27,009 nucleotides of DNA from a virus. Where the stretch lies: positions 1-27,009 of IMG/VR virus record IMGVR_UViG_3300035698_012853; one strand, written 5' to 3'. A program made the translations under genes and the position numbers. Positions within the stretch are counted from its first letter, which is position 1. Each line of letters begins with the position of its first letter. Positions 17,670 to 24,107 of this stretch are shown in pieces. A model generated the notes under the pieces. It worked only from the letters and a program-made list of their open reading frames with translations, searched no databases and was not told the origin of the DNA.

Positions 17670-17845
17670 AACTTCCCCAATCCTTTAAAGGTTTTTTGTT
17701 TTACTTCTGAAGCTAAAAATTGTTTATGTAATACCTTTATTTCGATAAAATCAACTTCTCTCCTGTAACTTGGTGCATAAATCCTTTCGTATCTTTCTAT
17801 ATGCCTAATATTGTGTTTGGCTTTTAACCATTCAGTAAAAGTCAA
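17597..17845 (-). CDS. Small hypothetical protein, 82 aa
   Basis: The ATG at 17845-17843 overlaps the stop of the connector gene (ATGA). The product begins MTFTEWLKAKHNIRHIERYERIYAPSYRREVDF, a helical, aromatic and basic sequence that looks genuinely coding; the C-terminal 25 residues include LWTNILNVLVAVVYS, a modest hydrophobic segment. Its last 73 bases overlap the 48-aa zinc-ribbon frame. No family is recognised. Between connector and minor capsid genes it is probably a small head or neck protein, but a role is inferred from position only. Confidence 0.6.
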   Translation of the reverse strand: MTFTEWLKAKHNIRHIERYERIYAPSYRREVDFIEIKVLHKQFLASEVKQKTFKGLGKLWTNILNVLVAVVYSKITKKEKTI

Positions 17846-18294
17846 ATTGTATCCTCGTCTTCATCCCTTGAGATATTAACAACCCGTAAACTTGAATTTG
17901 AAATAACATAATCATCTAAAATCTGCATGACTTTGGGTGCAATAACAACACCGCCTAACATTCCTTTGACATACTCCTCTTTTACTATTCCCGCTTTAAA
18001 TACACCTTGAGCTTGTATGCCTTTGCGTCTGTCAACATCTTCACCATAAGCCAAGATGAATAATGCTTGCTCACATTGAGCATCTTTCATTGCGGTTGTG
18101 ATTGCTGTAAGGGCAGTAGGTAAAGAAAATTTCTTGCTCCAATTTATTTCTTTATATGCAGAAACAAGTGCTGATTCCTTTTGTGCTTTTGTTATTTTAT
18201 CATCCCAATAAAAATCCGAGTTTACTCTTCTATCGAAATAAGTATCAGCATCAGCAACCGATATATATGTATCTGTAGCAACCGTTATAGTCAT
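17842..18294 (-). CDS. Head-tail connector (DnaT-like / adaptor)
   Basis: This 150-residue protein matches the phage family often labelled 'DnaT-like ssDNA-binding': TYISVADADTYFDRRVNSDFYW near the N-terminus, then KESALVSAYKEINWSKKF, and an alpha-helical core ending in PKVMQILDDYV. Members usually act as the adaptor bound below the portal (gp6/gp15 type), and the label is misleading. Position in a run of neck genes agrees. A perfect AGGAGG site lies upstream of its ATG. Confidence 0.8.
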   Translation of the reverse strand: MTITVATDTYISVADADTYFDRRVNSDFYWDDKITKAQKESALVSAYKEINWSKKFSLPTALTAITTAMKDAQCEQALFILAYGEDVDRRKGIQAQGVFKAGIVKEEYVKGMLGGVVIAPKVMQILDDYVISNSSLRVVNISRDEDEDTI

Positions 18295-18307: not shown

Positions 18308-18877
18308 CTAGCTTATTTCAACTATCCAATCTTTGTCACCGTCAACTGTAGCGTTATGCTCCGTGATAGGCACATAATCTTTTGGGTCAACCCAATATTT
18401 TAATTTCAAATTACGTTTTGTGCAAAAATCTCTTATTGCCCTAGCTGTGTCAGGGGTCACAAAATCATGCCCGCCTAAAAATCCACCGATCTTTATTTTA
18501 GGGTACCATGCTTCACAATCTGCTAAAGCCGCATCATAGCTATGATTTCCGTCAATATAAACAAAATCAAAGAAATTTACAGGGAATAATTCGGCTCCCT
18601 TTATTGAAGATTGAAGTACAATAGTTACCTTATCCAAGTGTGGCATTATCCTTTTACGCATAATCACTAAGGCTTCATCCATTTTTCCTTGATTGTAAGC
18701 TAAATTATTTCCTTCATACTGCCTATATTCAACGTATGGGTCAATTAAAAACAACTGTTTAGTCCCGAGGCTCAACATTCTGCCTGCGTTTCCACCTTGA
18801 AAAACACCAACTTCAGCCATTACTAAATTACCATTTGTTCTAGCTTTTACATACTCTTGTGATTGCCTTAATGACAT
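18308..18877 (-). CDS. Class I SAM-dependent methyltransferase (Methyltransf_24-like)
   Basis: The 189-residue product has the Methyltransf_24 order: AEVGVFQGGNAGRML (motif I, about residues 21-35), LFLIDPYVEY (acidic residue after strand two), FFDFVYIDGNHSYDAALADCEAW (about 112-134, motif with the DGxHSY signature), and KIKIGGFLGGHDF (about 138-150). These enzymes transfer methyl from SAM, often to sugars or polysaccharide biosynthesis intermediates; the substrate here is unknown. A good AAGGAG site precedes the ATG. It follows a CmoB-like methyltransferase and a multidomain glycosyltransferase-like gene, so the three probably act on one glycan pathway. Confidence 0.85.
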   Translation of the reverse strand: MSLRQSQEYVKARTNGNLVMAEVGVFQGGNAGRMLSLGTKQLFLIDPYVEYRQYEGNNLAYNQGKMDEALVIMRKRIMPHLDKVTIVLQSSIKGAELFPVNFFDFVYIDGNHSYDAALADCEAWYPKIKIGGFLGGHDFVTPDTARAIRDFCTKRNLKLKYWVDPKDYVPITEHNATVDGDKDWIVEIS

Positions 18878-18894
18878 AGCTTTTCTCCTTTTGG

Positions 18895-19677
18895 TTAAGT
18901 TAAATATTTCAGTGTTTCTTTTCTATAAACATCAAAACACTCTGAAGTTATTTCTATCAAATTATCTGATTTTTTGAATCTATCATAAAATTTATCTTGA
19001 TGAAGACAACCGCAAAAAGTCACTACTTGTTGGGTTGCTTCTGGCACCTTTTCGACAAAAATATATTTAAAACCCGCATTCTTGAACCATTGAACGATAC
19101 AACTTATATTTGCCCCTGTCCAGTTTGTTATACTGCCATTACAGACATCATCTTCATAAAACGCTGACAATGGGACATTAGGACCACGATTAACTGTATG
19201 GGTTCTCATTATGAAAGTAGAGTTACAAACTGAACGAGCTTTATCTATTGCTAATAAAGGATGCCTTAAATGGTATAGAAGCCCATAACAAAAAATTAAA
19301 TCAAATGAACCGTGATCATGGAAATTCAAGTCATAAATACTTGCTCTTTGTCTTTTTACGTTTGAGTTTAATATTTCCTTTATTTCGAAAAACCCTTTAT
19401 CCTTATCAGTCGATAATTTACCCCACTCACTAAAATCAGGTTTAATCTCCCCCCAATCGTAATTTTCATATCTGTCTACATCTACACCTAACACAGCACT
19501 TGAACCTTGTTTTTCAGCCCAAAACGCCCAAAACCCATCATTGCAGGCTATATCTAAAACTGTATTCCCGCTTAAATCAATATCAATAAGGCCAAGTCTT
19601 TTAGGTTGTTGCCTATAATCAATTCTACCTTCTGTAGCTTTTCCACCAGGTAAATCTATTGTCATAAATGTTTTCAT
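18895..19677 (-). CDS. CmoB-like class I methyltransferase
   Basis: At 260 residues it resembles the DUF1698 / CmoB-like methyltransferase group: FMTIDLPGGKATEGRIDYR (about 4-22), LSGNTVLDIACNDGFWAFWAE (motif I, about 35-55), VLGVDVDRYENYDW, FDLIFCYGLLYHLRHPLLAI (about 125-144), and STFIMRTHTV. In phages and O-antigen clusters, such proteins methylate sugars or unknown small molecules rather than tRNA; here the substrate is unknown. Its ATG shares a base with the stop of the 890-aa gene (TAATG), so they are translationally coupled. Confidence 0.85.
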   Translation of the reverse strand: MKTFMTIDLPGGKATEGRIDYRQQPKRLGLIDIDLSGNTVLDIACNDGFWAFWAEKQGSSAVLGVDVDRYENYDWGEIKPDFSEWGKLSTDKDKGFFEIKEILNSNVKRQRASIYDLNFHDHGSFDLIFCYGLLYHLRHPLLAIDKARSVCNSTFIMRTHTVNRGPNVPLSAFYEDDVCNGSITNWTGANISCIVQWFKNAGFKYIFVEKVPEATQQVVTFCGCLHQDKFYDRFKKSDNLIEITSECFDVYRKETLKYLT

Positions 19678-22349
19678 TAGTACGATCTCCTAAAGTATTC
19701 GTCTGAAGTTGATTCTATTCTATCAACTAATTGCTTTGAATTCAACGGAATTGCATAATAGTTACAGATGAAGTATAAATACCTCTTAAGAATATCTTCA
19801 TTTATTTTAAAATTCGATAATTTTGTGTGCAAATATTTAAAATCTGTTATGTCTTTCATTTCAAAGACTAATCTACTGTCACTACAAAAATGGTACCCTA
19901 CTGTAGCAAATATTTTCCCCTTCATTAACCCTTCAAAAATAGTCGTTGATGAAAAAGAAGTGAAATATTTGAAAGCATTAAATAAAGTATCGATACTTTC
20001 ATCAACTATAACCACATTTTTTAAATCTTTCAAAAAATCCATACAACACATTTTATCTTTTTTAATTGTTCTGTAAACAGGATGTATTTTTACAATGAAT
20101 TTAGCACTGTGGTTGTAATTAGATAATGCTGTCATATAATCGACTAAACCCTTAATGTCGGGATTCTTTGAATAAATAAGGCTTTTATCATCAATCTCTT
20201 GTAATAATACAACTATGTTTTTTTCGTGCTTATTCAATTTGTACTTATTAAGTAAATCATCCCTACCCATTATTTTCGGTTGGTCCATTTTGGTCCTTTT
20301 TGGTCCTTTTATGTCCTCAAATATAGAGATTCTTTCAACATACTTGGATATTTCATTTTGTGGTGTAAAATGTGCATCTATCCGATCAATTACGTTCTTG
20401 ACACCGCAGAATGCTTCGCTGAATAAAAAATCAATACTAAGCTCTTTGCAAATATCTTTAACCCATTCAGTAGGGTAATCAACGCTTAAAACAGTATCGA
20501 CCCTTTCCTTTCTCAAAAAATGTTTTAAATCGTGAATACTGCTCTCATTCCTAAAAAGAACAATATACTTTTTTTGTAACTCTTTATTTTCTCGAATATA
20601 TTTATGATAAACAGCTCCAACCTTATACACCAATAAAGTTTTTTTAGTCTTTACACTAATGCTTTTTTCAATAATCTTCTTACCTTTTTCACCAGTTAAG
20701 GCTTCAAAAGACTCTATCATTTTATTTTCGTCTATATCTTTGTAACAATCGTGACTAGGCTTTAAGCAATTACAAAAAGGTTCTGGTAAAGCACAAGCAT
20801 ATTTTTCTAGCCCCATACGTTTATCTAAAAACAAATCAGGATGTTGACATCCACCATAAACACCAAAAGTCATTGTTTGTTCGGCTATCGCCAAAGGTAA
20901 TAAAAAGCAGTTGCCGGCAATAACTAAATCAGCTAATTTGACTAAACCACAAATTAATTCAAACGACAATTCGCCTTCGTGAAATTCTTTATCAATATTT
21001 TTTGGCTCTTCTAAGAAATACTCGTTATCCTCTCTTGTATCAGCGATAGAAACAAAGAAATATTTATCATTATATTTATCAACTAAAAGTTGTATATACT
21101 CCGGTTTTGGCTCCCTAGCGATACAATCCCACTCTTTACGCATAACAGGATATCTAACAATACAAAGCTTCTTACCTTCAAGTTCGAAAGTTGATATTAA
21201 TTTTTTAGCTTCCTTTATCCATTCTTTTTTAGGCTTAAAGCTAAAATCATATTTATCTATTTTGTAAATCGCCTCAAATTGTTCTGTCATTGTTAAGTTC
21301 CATTGGTAACCATTCCAATACATAGGCTTTTTAATTTGCTTGATATTTTTAGGCAATTCTGACCATTTATTTTCTGGTGAGTCAGCTATTTTATTGTGAG
21401 TTATAAAATTCTTAAATGGGTTTCTCACAAATTTTATTCCCGGTATATCCCAATACACTTGGGGCGTAAATGTCATAAGGTATAAATTTTTCTTTTTAGC
21501 TATTTCCTTAATAAATGGACGTTGCCAAAAATTATCACCTATCCCTGCATAACCCTCCAAATAAACAGATTCTTTAGGTTGTTTAATTACTTCTTTAATC
21601 GGGATACGAGTGAAGCACCTCAACGCCCCTTTATTACCGACCACCTGGACCTTTATTTTTTCATCCCTTAAAATATCGGCAACCATTTCAAACCTACATA
21701 TAAATTTTTTATAAATATTTGCTTCTTGTGTTTTAGGGTACCCTGCATGAAAATTAGATTGTTTCCCTTTATTACCATCCATATCAAAACCGATTAAATA
21801 AATAGGATTTGCACCTAAACAAACAGCAAGATTAAGGGCTGCGTATCCTGTGTTATCAGCGTAACAAATCCCCTTATCACTGTTAAAAGTAAGCATATAT
21901 CTTTTGTTGGCAGGCTCTACCGTCAAAACATCTTCAGGATATTCAAAATCTTTTGTTTTTAAAGCTACTTTGATTCCCTTAATGATTTGCCATTTATGCA
22001 AGGCTTCTTTACCTAATTGACCGCTTTCAACCCATCCCCAAAACTGTGTGTCCATCCAAATATTTACTTCGCAATCGACCTTTTCAAATGCCCTATTACA
22101 TCCAATAATATGTTCACCTTCAATTTTGCTAAAGTCAAAATCGTTTACGCTTTTACCACCACCAATAATAAAGCAGCGTTTACCTAACCAACTACTGTCA
22201 GGTAATACGTCACTCAATATTTTAGGCTTAAGAATTACTTGTGGCGGGGTTTCTTTTGTTATGTTTGGTTTGTTTATAGCTTGAGGCTTGTCATTATTGA
22301 CTTGATTACGCTTGTTTTTCTTTATATCTTTAAAAAATATAGCACCCAT
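19677..22349 (-). CDS. Three-domain glycan protein: DUF115, GT9-like, capsule GT-B-like
   Basis: This 890-residue protein appears to fuse three domains. Residues about 55-245 resemble DUF115: LGKRCFIIGGGKSVNDFDFS, IIGCNRAFE, NTGYAALNLAVCLGA, and PIYLIGFDMDG. Residues about 260-545 resemble a GT9 heptosyltransferase-type fold: VYLEGYAGIGDNFWQRPFI, KLCIVRYP, LVKLADLVIAGNCFLLPLAIA and TFGVYGGCQHPDLF. Residues about 570-890 resemble capsule polysaccharide or CDP-glycerol-type GT-B proteins: FIVKIHPVYR (KIHP at 754-757), NVVIVDESIDTLFNAF and FSSTTIFEGLMKGK. No signal or membrane segment, so it acts in the cytosol. It may glycosylate a virion protein or alter the host envelope. It is inserted between head genes and coupled to two methyltransferases. 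A nucleotide-sugar substrate is expected but not identifiable. Confidence 0.75.
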   Translation of the reverse strand: MGAIFFKDIKKNKRNQVNNDKPQAINKPNITKETPPQVILKPKILSDVLPDSSWLGKRCFIIGGGKSVNDFDFSKIEGEHIIGCNRAFEKVDCEVNIWMDTQFWGWVESGQLGKEALHKWQIIKGIKVALKTKDFEYPEDVLTVEPANKRYMLTFNSDKGICYADNTGYAALNLAVCLGANPIYLIGFDMDGNKGKQSNFHAGYPKTQEANIYKKFICRFEMVADILRDEKIKVQVVGNKGALRCFTRIPIKEVIKQPKESVYLEGYAGIGDNFWQRPFIKEIAKKKNLYLMTFTPQVYWDIPGIKFVRNPFKNFITHNKIADSPENKWSELPKNIKQIKKPMYWNGYQWNLTMTEQFEAIYKIDKYDFSFKPKKEWIKEAKKLISTFELEGKKLCIVRYPVMRKEWDCIAREPKPEYIQLLVDKYNDKYFFVSIADTREDNEYFLEEPKNIDKEFHEGELSFELICGLVKLADLVIAGNCFLLPLAIAEQTMTFGVYGGCQHPDLFLDKRMGLEKYACALPEPFCNCLKPSHDCYKDIDENKMIESFEALTGEKGKKIIEKSISVKTKKTLLVYKVGAVYHKYIRENKELQKKYIVLFRNESSIHDLKHFLRKERVDTVLSVDYPTEWVKDICKELSIDFLFSEAFCGVKNVIDRIDAHFTPQNEISKYVERISIFEDIKGPKRTKMDQPKIMGRDDLLNKYKLNKHEKNIVVLLQEIDDKSLIYSKNPDIKGLVDYMTALSNYNHSAKFIVKIHPVYRTIKKDKMCCMDFLKDLKNVVIVDESIDTLFNAFKYFTSFSSTTIFEGLMKGKIFATVGYHFCSDSRLVFEMKDITDFKYLHTKLSNFKINEDILKRYLYFICNYYAIPLNSKQLVDRIESTSDEYFRRSY

Positions 22350-22366: not shown

Positions 22367-22570
22367 TTATTCTGGGAACTTGAATCCTGCCTTTTCAAAC
22401 AATGCAATTTGCTCTTCAGTTAATTTAGAAAAAACACGATCAGTTACCAGTATTCTTTTGGTTTTTATGTCTACCTTAAATCTTTTTCCCTTTTCATCAA
22501 AATAAAATAATTCTTTTTTTCCGTCTTTATCGTAAACCTTTATCTTTTCTTTGTTTTTTTTATCAGCCAT
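22367..22570 (-). CDS. Small charged protein, 67 aa
   Basis: A 67-residue frame directly after the hairpin downstream of the capsid gene, with GGAGATAG-like leader before its ATG. The product is very rich in Lys and Glu (MADKKNKEKIKVYDKDGKK), with a beta-prone middle (FKVDIKTKRILVTD) and the ending LTEEQIALFEKAGFKFPE. Small proteins of this sort after the major capsid gene are frequent in phages but are usually unassigned. A minor head or adaptor role is possible. Confidence 0.6.
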   Translation of the reverse strand: MADKKNKEKIKVYDKDGKKELFYFDEKGKRFKVDIKTKRILVTDRVFSKLTEEQIALFEKAGFKFPE

Positions 22571-22597: not shown

Positions 22598-22639
22598 GCA
22601 GTGCGGAATACCACAGGAGAGAAAGGCATTCCACACTGC
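22598..22639 (-). terminator. Stem-loop after the major capsid gene
   Basis: Minus-strand RNA: GCAGUGUGGAAU (22639-22628) pairs with AUUCCGCACUGC (22609-22598) over 12 positions with one G-U, and a further GCC/GGU extends the stem to about 15 pairs around a 12-base loop. Four U residues follow (22597-22594). It lies 21 bases after the capsid stop. A partial terminator or 3' stability hairpin would let the capsid gene be expressed above the genes that follow. Confidence 0.75.
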
Positions 22640-22659: not shown

Positions 22660-23667
22660 CTATGCAACTGAACAACGACGAAATTGTGCAGTCTCACCTA
22701 TAGCACCACCGTAACGCATCCAACCTGCAACTAAGTCAGCATATTCTAAAATCTTGAACATATTGAACAGAGTAAGATTCATTCTGTATCCAGCTTTAGA
22801 TTTTTGCTTAGGAATACACACATAATACTTGTCAGTTGCTGACAGCATAAGCGTATAAACAGGCTTAAAACTAAAGCTTTTTTTCATAGGAGAACCCACA
22901 ACAGCCTGATTAACTCTAGCTAAAGCTGCGGTAATCCTACCCCTTAAATCAACAGGGGCAACGATCAAGAATTGAGTGTTTGCATTAACCCCCATGCCTG
23001 CATTTTTTAGCGCCTTAACAATTTCTAAGGCAGCTGCATCCATTGTTCTGTAGTCACGATCGGCTGTGTAGCCGTCGTTGGTTGAAGCTATACCGGTTAC
23101 AACCCAATCCACATTATGTGCAGCATTATTAGGGATAGCATCAATCAAATCATAGAACGTTTGCGCCCTTGTTGAATAAGCTTTGTTTCTAAACGCAATG
23201 GCATTATCTTCTAATGTCCAGTACTGTTTATCATCCATTAACTCACGGTCCCACAAAAGTCCACCACCATATCTTGCGAAGCTTACATTTGTTTTCTCAC
23301 CAGTGAATTTGAATACTTTGGCTTTTCCACCAGATTTAACTTCAGCAAAAGTCAAACCACTTGAAACATCTAACAAAGAAAAACCACTTTCATTTGTACC
23401 TGTAAAATCACGAATATCAAAAACCTCTTCGTAACCTAAATCATAATCAGGTACTGCATGCCACTTTGCTAAAATCTGCAAAACATTATCATCAAAATCG
23501 CCTTTGGTAGCGAATGCCTGATAAGCTGCTTTTAATGGTGAATTAGCATTATCAGGTGCCTGCATGAATGCTTGGAACGCACCATGAAGTTTTGCTAAAC
23601 CCACTTTAGGATTTTTAGCAATTTCTTCCATAGTCGCTGACCAACTTTTTATAATTTTACCTTTCAT
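22660..23667 (-). CDS. Major capsid protein (HK97 fold)
   Basis: The 335-residue protein has the layout of HK97-fold major capsid proteins of the Mu gpT-like group. An N-terminal helical arm is followed by LAKWHAVPDYDLGYEEVFDIRDFTG, FAEVKSGGKAKVFKFTGEKTNVSFARYGGGLLWDRELMDDKQYW, RTMDAAALEIVKALKNAGM, FLIVAPVDLRGRI, and LNLTLFNMFKILEYADLVAGWMRYGG near the end. It follows the portal, protease-scaffold and decoration genes in the normal order. A GGAGG ribosome site precedes the ATG, and hairpins occur on both sides, fitting high expression. No evidence for a proteolytic delta domain is obvious. Confidence 0.9.
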   Translation of the reverse strand: MKGKIIKSWSATMEEIAKNPKVGLAKLHGAFQAFMQAPDNANSPLKAAYQAFATKGDFDDNVLQILAKWHAVPDYDLGYEEVFDIRDFTGTNESGFSLLDVSSGLTFAEVKSGGKAKVFKFTGEKTNVSFARYGGGLLWDRELMDDKQYWTLEDNAIAFRNKAYSTRAQTFYDLIDAIPNNAAHNVDWVVTGIASTNDGYTADRDYRTMDAAALEIVKALKNAGMGVNANTQFLIVAPVDLRGRITAALARVNQAVVGSPMKKSFSFKPVYTLMLSATDKYYVCIPKQKSKAGYRMNLTLFNMFKILEYADLVAGWMRYGGAIGETAQFRRCSVA

Positions 23668-23744: not shown

Positions 23745-24107
23745 TTACGCAGCTACACTTCCATTCAGTTCGATTTCAACTGTAGTATCGGTAGCACCCG
23801 CAGCAACTAAACATCTACCGCAAAGAGTATTACTACTTGAAGACGCATTCACATTTTCATCCGCATGGTCAAAATAAACTTTTTCACCGATTGCGAAAGT
23901 AACACCAGTGGCTGCAGCCTTAGGTACAACGATTTTATCGCATTGATAAACGAATGCAACTGTATCACCACTATCACCTGCTTCAACATACTGACCAACT
24001 AAGCCATTATATAGATCCATTTGACCCGCTGTTACGGTTTCAGCAAGTTCGATCTCAACAGAACGATATCTGTCAGAACGCATCTTTAAAGCTGTTGAAT
24101 TACTCAT
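23745..24107 (-). CDS. Capsid decoration protein, DUF2190-like
   Basis: The 120-residue product has the small-barrel pattern of DUF2190 proteins found beside capsid genes: IELAETVTAGQMDLYNGLVGQYVEAGDSGDTVAFVYQCDKIVVPKAAATGVTFAIGEKVYFDH, then CGRCLVAAGATDTTVEIELNG. Characteristic are VxAGxxVxxxG, a G-DTVAFVY strand, and GEKVYFD (family W/F-D). These proteins decorate the outside of the capsid. A GGAGG site lies before the ATG. It is flanked on both sides by predicted stem-loops. Confidence 0.8.
   Translation of the reverse strand: MSNSTALKMRSDRYRSVEIELAETVTAGQMDLYNGLVGQYVEAGDSGDTVAFVYQCDKIVVPKAAATGVTFAIGEKVYFDHADENVNASSSSNTLCGRCLVAAGATDTTVEIELNGSVAA

Follow-up and report, generated by a model that had tools for sequence, protein, structure and literature searches.

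Phage glycosyltransferases that build a glycan on the capsid protein are known from the mycobacteriophages Che8, Rita and their relatives (PMC11256854, PMC12619734), and in the mycobacteriophage Maravista the transferase genes are located close to the genome's 3' end and do not form a capsid-linked island (PMC11256854). Here, we analyze a 27-kb fragment of an uncultured phage (IMG/VR record IMGVR_UViG_3300035698_012853, positions 1 to 27,009; hereafter the window). Between its capsid gene and its head-tail adaptor gene (Ad1) lie genes for an 890-aa, three-domain glycosyltransferase-like protein, whose N-terminal domain is related to DUF115, and for two methyltransferases. Comparison with related loci makes it rather likely that this set of three represents one version of a hypervariable glycan island with a fixed place between the capsid and adaptor genes, a generality missed by the first-pass annotation of the window, and the island probably gives the virus particle a glycan coat, with differences between phages. 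It is carried by uncultured siphovirus-like phages that make up a large clade. The proposed function, virion glycosylation, is of a kind already described in mycobacteriophages; what is new is the fixed-site, DUF115-anchored hypervariable island in this uncultured clade, and its link with Pseudomonas phage D3. A literature search found no description of such a capsid-linked island, which is not proof of its absence.

Other described systems share parts of this arrangement. D3 and PAJU2, both Pseudomonas phages of the genus Detrevirus, have the same first two protein families as the window (DUF115-like and GT9-like). In D3, a DUF115-like gene lies between the capsid gene and Ad1, and the trio with GT9 and a methyltransferase is scattered in the head/neck region; in PAJU2, the trio is located between the head closure gene and the next neck gene. 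Unlike in the window, these are separate small genes, with a Methyltransf_23-type methyltransferase and no KpsC-like domain, and no large variable island was seen. The first-pass annotation, which knew of no such three-gene module at this place, was therefore only partly right. Klebsiella phage vB_KvM-Eowyn (gp005-gp003) also has genes of the DUF115-like, GT9-like and methyltransferase types side by side, but they are oriented opposite to their neighbours, outside the head/neck region and with no annotated structural gene adjoining. The Maf flagellin O-glycosyltransferases (PF01973) belong to a Pfam family related to DUF115 and represent cytoplasmic protein glycosylation with exchangeable sugar genes nearby (in part PMC11339370); the window domain differs in scoring below the Pfam cut-off, in being linked to a phage capsid gene and in having no flagellin. 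The chlorovirus PBCV-1 protein A111/114R combines three glycosyltransferase domains in a single chain and builds a capsid glycan (PMC7826918), although this glycan is N-linked and the virus is an unrelated eukaryotic giant virus.

Relatives could be gathered only with profiles. When viral contigs were scanned with single sequences (the 890-aa, 260-aa and capsid proteins), none was returned, and an alignment of the GT9 domain was rejected as a scanning profile because it was too divergent. Scanning viral contigs with a DUF115 profile identified 231 relatives, and 80 of these were retained. A second sample was gathered with a capsid profile, so that selection was not on DUF115; this profile was made from DUF115-bearing loci and thus enriches for the clade, yet DUF115 is not a requirement. 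Genes were called by a simple longest-open-reading-frame rule, with no trained gene finder.

The capsid sample comprises 71 non-redundant loci, 63 of them with at least 600 bp of downstream sequence. In 61 of these 63 loci, DUF115 lies no more than 1.3 kb past the capsid stop codon, the two exceptions being L115 and L136; a further candidate exception (L147) was rejected, as its DUF115 sits within a long open reading frame. The site is empty in L115 (7621-7678), where Ad1 starts 57 bp 3' of the capsid gene with a hairpin in the spacer, and no DUF115 was found anywhere on the fetched contig. The distance from capsid to adaptor varies between 1.4 and 9.6 kb (median 4.6 kb, n = 32 loci with both borders). 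Homologues of the window capsid protein are 37-60% identical in 28 loci, with 80 further matches. Homologous capsid and DUF115 loci are also present in contigs of metagenome-assembled genomes binned as Aminicenantes (L168, 189 kb) and Omnitrophota (L167), which are possible hosts by bin label.

In contrast to its position, the content of the island varies strongly. Pfam assignments of 142 island genes are mainly GT2, several methyltransferase families, GT1-like transferases, radical SAM proteins, sugar-nucleotide enzymes, deacetylases, and sulfo- and pyruvyltransferases, and epimerases also occur among the variable genes between DUF115 and the adaptor. The radical SAM (8 of 142) and SPASM (3 of 142) genes, from several loci, are unusual partners in a glycan island. 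In 20 contigs of 30-48 kb, GT2 was found in 12, and all 19 GT2 stretches fall in the island region, 3' of the capsid gene; the right border was undetected in some of these contigs, including L151 with its GT2 at +9.1 kb. Phage pairs with capsid identities of up to 75% have on average 7-13% of their island genes in common, compared to 68-83% of the flanking virion genes. Even L116 and L121, with capsids that are 87% identical, have no accessory island gene in common, while all flanking genes are common to both. The DUF115 domain (mean identity 44%) is the exception, being co-inherited with the virion genes: its distances correlate with virion-gene distances (r of 0.45-0.74).

The island products appear to be soluble. 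A hydropathy rule predicts no membrane helix for 235 of the 246 island genes, and the maximum of two helices is reached by one gene only. The Gtr seroconversion modules of temperate phages, likewise phage glycosyltransferases, depend on membrane proteins, among them the GtrA flippase. In the window clade, by contrast, neither GtrA (PF04138) nor Wzx (PF01943) was matched in the 20 contigs, which are fragments, and together with the helix counts of the island genes this leaves none of the hallmarks of Gtr-type seroconversion or O-antigen loci (GtrA or Wzx, with a multi-pass transferase) in the sequences examined.

The locus in the window is encoded on the minus strand, with the features listed below.

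23745..24107, minus strand: capsid decoration (cement) protein gene (Phage_cement_2, 5.8e-12)
22660..23667, minus strand: major capsid protein gene, left island border (Phage_capsid_4, 1.3e-7)
22598..22639, minus strand: terminator-like hairpin between the capsid gene and the island (15-bp stem, then TTTT; found in part by a terminator scan)
22367..22570, minus strand: 67-aa gene (open reading frame)
19677..22349, minus strand: 890-aa three-domain glycosyltransferase-like protein (open reading frame, domain matches, model)
21576..22229, minus strand: DUF115/Maf-like domain, residues 41-258, conserved putative island anchor (phrog_4603, 2.5e-20)
20715..21575, minus strand: GT9 heptosyltransferase-like domain, about residues 259-545 (phrog_6804, 6e-35; Foldseek)
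19680..20642, minus strand: KpsC/Capsule_synth-like GT-B domain, about residues 570-890 (PF05159, 1.2e-5; Foldseek)
18895..19677, minus strand: class I S-adenosylmethionine-dependent methyltransferase, CmoB/Methyltransf_9-like, 260 aa (PF08003, 1.7e-8)
18308..18877, minus strand: class I S-adenosylmethionine-dependent methyltransferase, Methyltransf_24-like, 189 aa (PF13578, 1.2e-10)
17842..18294, minus strand: head-tail adaptor Ad1 gene, right island border (phrog_477, 6e-10)

On this strand, the capsid gene is followed by the hairpin, the 67-aa gene, the three enzyme genes and Ad1. Genes for minor head, neck and tail proteins come next, among them a lambda J-like protein and a tape measure. 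Open reading frames, junction letters and flanking gene matches agree exactly with the first-pass annotation on the three genes, their coordinates, the TAATG junction between the 890-aa and 260-aa genes, the 17 bases between the 260-aa and 189-aa genes, and their place in the head operon. All three genes are preceded by an AGGAG-type or GGGAG ribosome-binding site, while a promoter scan of the window gave a result no better than shuffles. The 67-aa protein has no PHROG or credible Pfam match and no homologue among the fetched loci. It is lysine-rich, and the same slot is occupied by a 112-134-aa gene in several relatives.

All 70 loci examined have strong predicted folds in the 80 nt 3' of the capsid gene, with variable hairpin sequences. 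The mean folding energy across these loci is -31.5 kcal/mol after the capsid gene, compared to -12.5 downstream of the cement gene and -21.0 within the capsid gene. The hairpin is a probable attenuator between the capsid gene and the island, which would reduce enzyme output relative to capsid protein.

The 890-aa protein was modeled with AlphaFold2 at a mean predicted local distance difference test score (pLDDT) of 82. Its middle domain matches phrog_6804 (residues 263-542), a family whose members, from D3-like Pseudomonas phages among others, have invariant G-GD, R-EW and CxC...HxC signatures, the last located at residues 526-535. Foldseek matches of the model include WaaF (1psw, 1.3e-7), a Veillonella GT9 protein (3tov, 1.2e-6), KpsC (6mgd, 2.7e-6) and TibC (6e-6), and the top matches assign the middle domain a GT-B fold related to WaaF, WaaC and TibC. 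TibC is an autotransporter heptosyltransferase; thus, GT9 includes protein-modifying enzymes. The C-terminal domain is of the Capsule_synth/KpsC type, with a KpsC-like fold, a match of residues 664-819 to PF05159 above the Pfam cut-off (25.4 bits against 20), an HP motif at 756-757 and an SS motif at 800-801.

The N-terminal domain is DUF115-like by sequence, with residues 62-258 matching phrog_4603, which is named 'alpha-2,3-sialyltransferase'. PF01973 matches it weakly (E of 0.0097, 16.1 bits), below the curated cut-off of 34.6 bits; 46 of 64 DUF115 relatives match this profile at E-values up to 1e-3, and every one scanned singly is below the cut-off. W54, G64, G65, S67, N85, D100, G168, D189 and Y204 are invariant across the DUF115 family, and H201 nearly so. 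Modeled alone, the domain reaches a pLDDT of 92, and a Foldseek search with this model gave no significant match. The best sequence-profile match of DUF115 in the PDB is CST-II, which is weak (E of 6e-4 to 7e-4, two motifs). Given this weak match and the non-significant fold search, we only infer catalysis by this domain. GT29 (sialyltransferase) Pfam matches, initially read as evidence on DUF115, were dropped when per-protein scans placed them in separate C-terminal fused domains. A solved structure of Maf, which glycosylates flagellin, has a CST-II-like central domain (PMC11339370).

The domain assignments of the first-pass annotation are supported by the PHROG and Capsule_synth matches and by the WaaF, TibC and KpsC folds, and its CmoB-like and Methyltransf_24-like methyltransferases by PF08003 and PF13578. 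Its choice of Pfam profiles fared less evenly, with PF05159 above the cut-off, PF01973 below it, and PF01075 without a match in the 890-aa protein itself; likewise, structure prediction recovered the GT9-like and KpsC-like folds and no significant fold for DUF115 alone. A survey of related phages, which it had also proposed, identified the same three genes in contig L014 at 52% (890-aa, full-length), 58% (260-aa) and 61% (189-aa) identity, with the order of the two methyltransferases swapped. Since L014 has all three, the set is not a chance arrangement. Contigs L069 and L097 have the three-domain protein with different neighbours. Elsewhere, DUF115 is fused to a GT77-like (Nucleotid_trans) domain (L013 and, by alignment, L105), to GT2 (L112 and L025), to a methyltransferase (L126), or to GT77-like, methyltransferase and GT29 domains in one protein (L094).

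Linkage to head genes extends beyond this capsid type. Among 42 non-redundant DUF115 loci without a detected capsid of the window type, a few of them on contigs that stop short of the capsid gene, the nearest one or two genes 5' of DUF115 include head-tail adaptors (phrog_442, phrog_4931) and major head proteins, with Pfam matches to Linocin_M18/DUF6260, Phage_capsid and Major_capside. These loci, together with D3 and PAJU2, show that the linkage of DUF115 to head genes arose, or was kept, in several lineages. In Caulobacter phage CcrSC (L011:5019-9505), a DUF115-like gene and a methyltransferase gene directly follow a tail protein gene, a possible tail-side counterpart.

Our best reading, which we hold to be reasonably likely, is that the island glycosylates a virion protein in the cytoplasm and, in the window phage, adds methyl caps. 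A virion protein is favored because the near absence of membrane helices and of Wzx or GtrA points to an acceptor in the cytosol that is produced simultaneously. Late in infection, a timing suggested by gene position, DUF115 would attach the first sugar to this protein, as Maf does to flagellin. The acceptor would most likely be the capsid or the decoration protein, the latter (23745..24107) being a candidate. The GT9-like and KpsC-like domains may then add further sugars, perhaps in this order and drawing on the ADP-heptose and CMP-Kdo of the host, after which the glycan would be capped by the two methyltransferases. The DUF115/Maf-like domain would serve as an anchor inherited with the virion genes, while the transferases and tailoring enzymes fused to it or encoded nearby are exchanged among phages. 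More tentatively, the island may constitute a serotype-like locus at one site in a broad group of tailed phages, where DUF115 marks the virion protein and exchangeable enzymes vary the coat, as in O-antigen and flagellar islands.

Several observations weigh against virion glycosylation. L115 demonstrates that at least one phage can do without the island, and the distance correlations singled out no virion acceptor (the partial correlation used 10 loci only). Catalysis by DUF115 leans on the low-scoring PF01973 and CST-II similarities and a non-significant fold match. Although soluble, the enzymes might still use lipid-linked precursors of the host, and the loci surveyed are contig fragments. 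A rival reading is modification of the host envelope, by which lipopolysaccharide, capsule or cell-wall precursors would be altered late, so that progeny do not stick to debris and competitors cannot adsorb. Relatives of KpsC, WaaF and Capsule_synth normally make envelope glycans, a Gratiaviridae glycosyltransferase between the portal and capsid genes has been interpreted in this way (PMC8008677), and hypervariability fits a cell-surface arms race as well. However, no flippase, polymerase or GtrA was found in the 20 contig fragments, there are hardly any membrane proteins, and an envelope function would need neither a capsid-fixed site nor co-inheritance of DUF115 with virion genes; we therefore consider it rather unlikely. 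The first-pass annotation had left the choice between virion and envelope open, and the virion option is now better supported by the fixed site, the DUF115 co-inheritance, the soluble products, the lack of Wzx and GtrA, and the head linkage with other capsids.

In a further alternative, DUF115 is no glycosyltransferase at all. It could be another nucleotide-binding enzyme, such as a pyrophosphokinase or a methanopterin MptE-like protein, in an island for modifying a host protein or for synthesis of a small molecule; PF01973 is named in Pfam after a pterin kinase, and the fold search lists thiamine pyrophosphokinase and a related protein beside the sialyltransferase ST6GALNAC2, all non-significant. 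Its fusion to many different glycosyltransferases, CST-II as the best PDB profile match and the capsid-linked position make this quite improbable. Hypermodification of DNA or nucleotides, with the transferases decorating modified bases of the phage genome, has precedent in that DNA is the target of many phage glycosyltransferases (PMC12619734 and references therein). We judge it very unlikely: the 20 contig fragments contain no homologue of thymidylate synthase, a usual source of modifiable bases, the position in the head operon is late, and deacetylases, sulfo- and pyruvyltransferases and several transferases per island suit a surface glycan better.

Glycosylated phage virions have so far come from few systems. 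If virion glycosylation by this island is correct, its presence in almost every sampled member of the clade would suggest that sugar-coated capsids are common and under strong diversifying pressure, raising the question of what reads the coat: the host surface, mucus, antibodies or competing phages. The echo of the island in the laboratory phage D3, and in PAJU2, makes this idea open to experiment.

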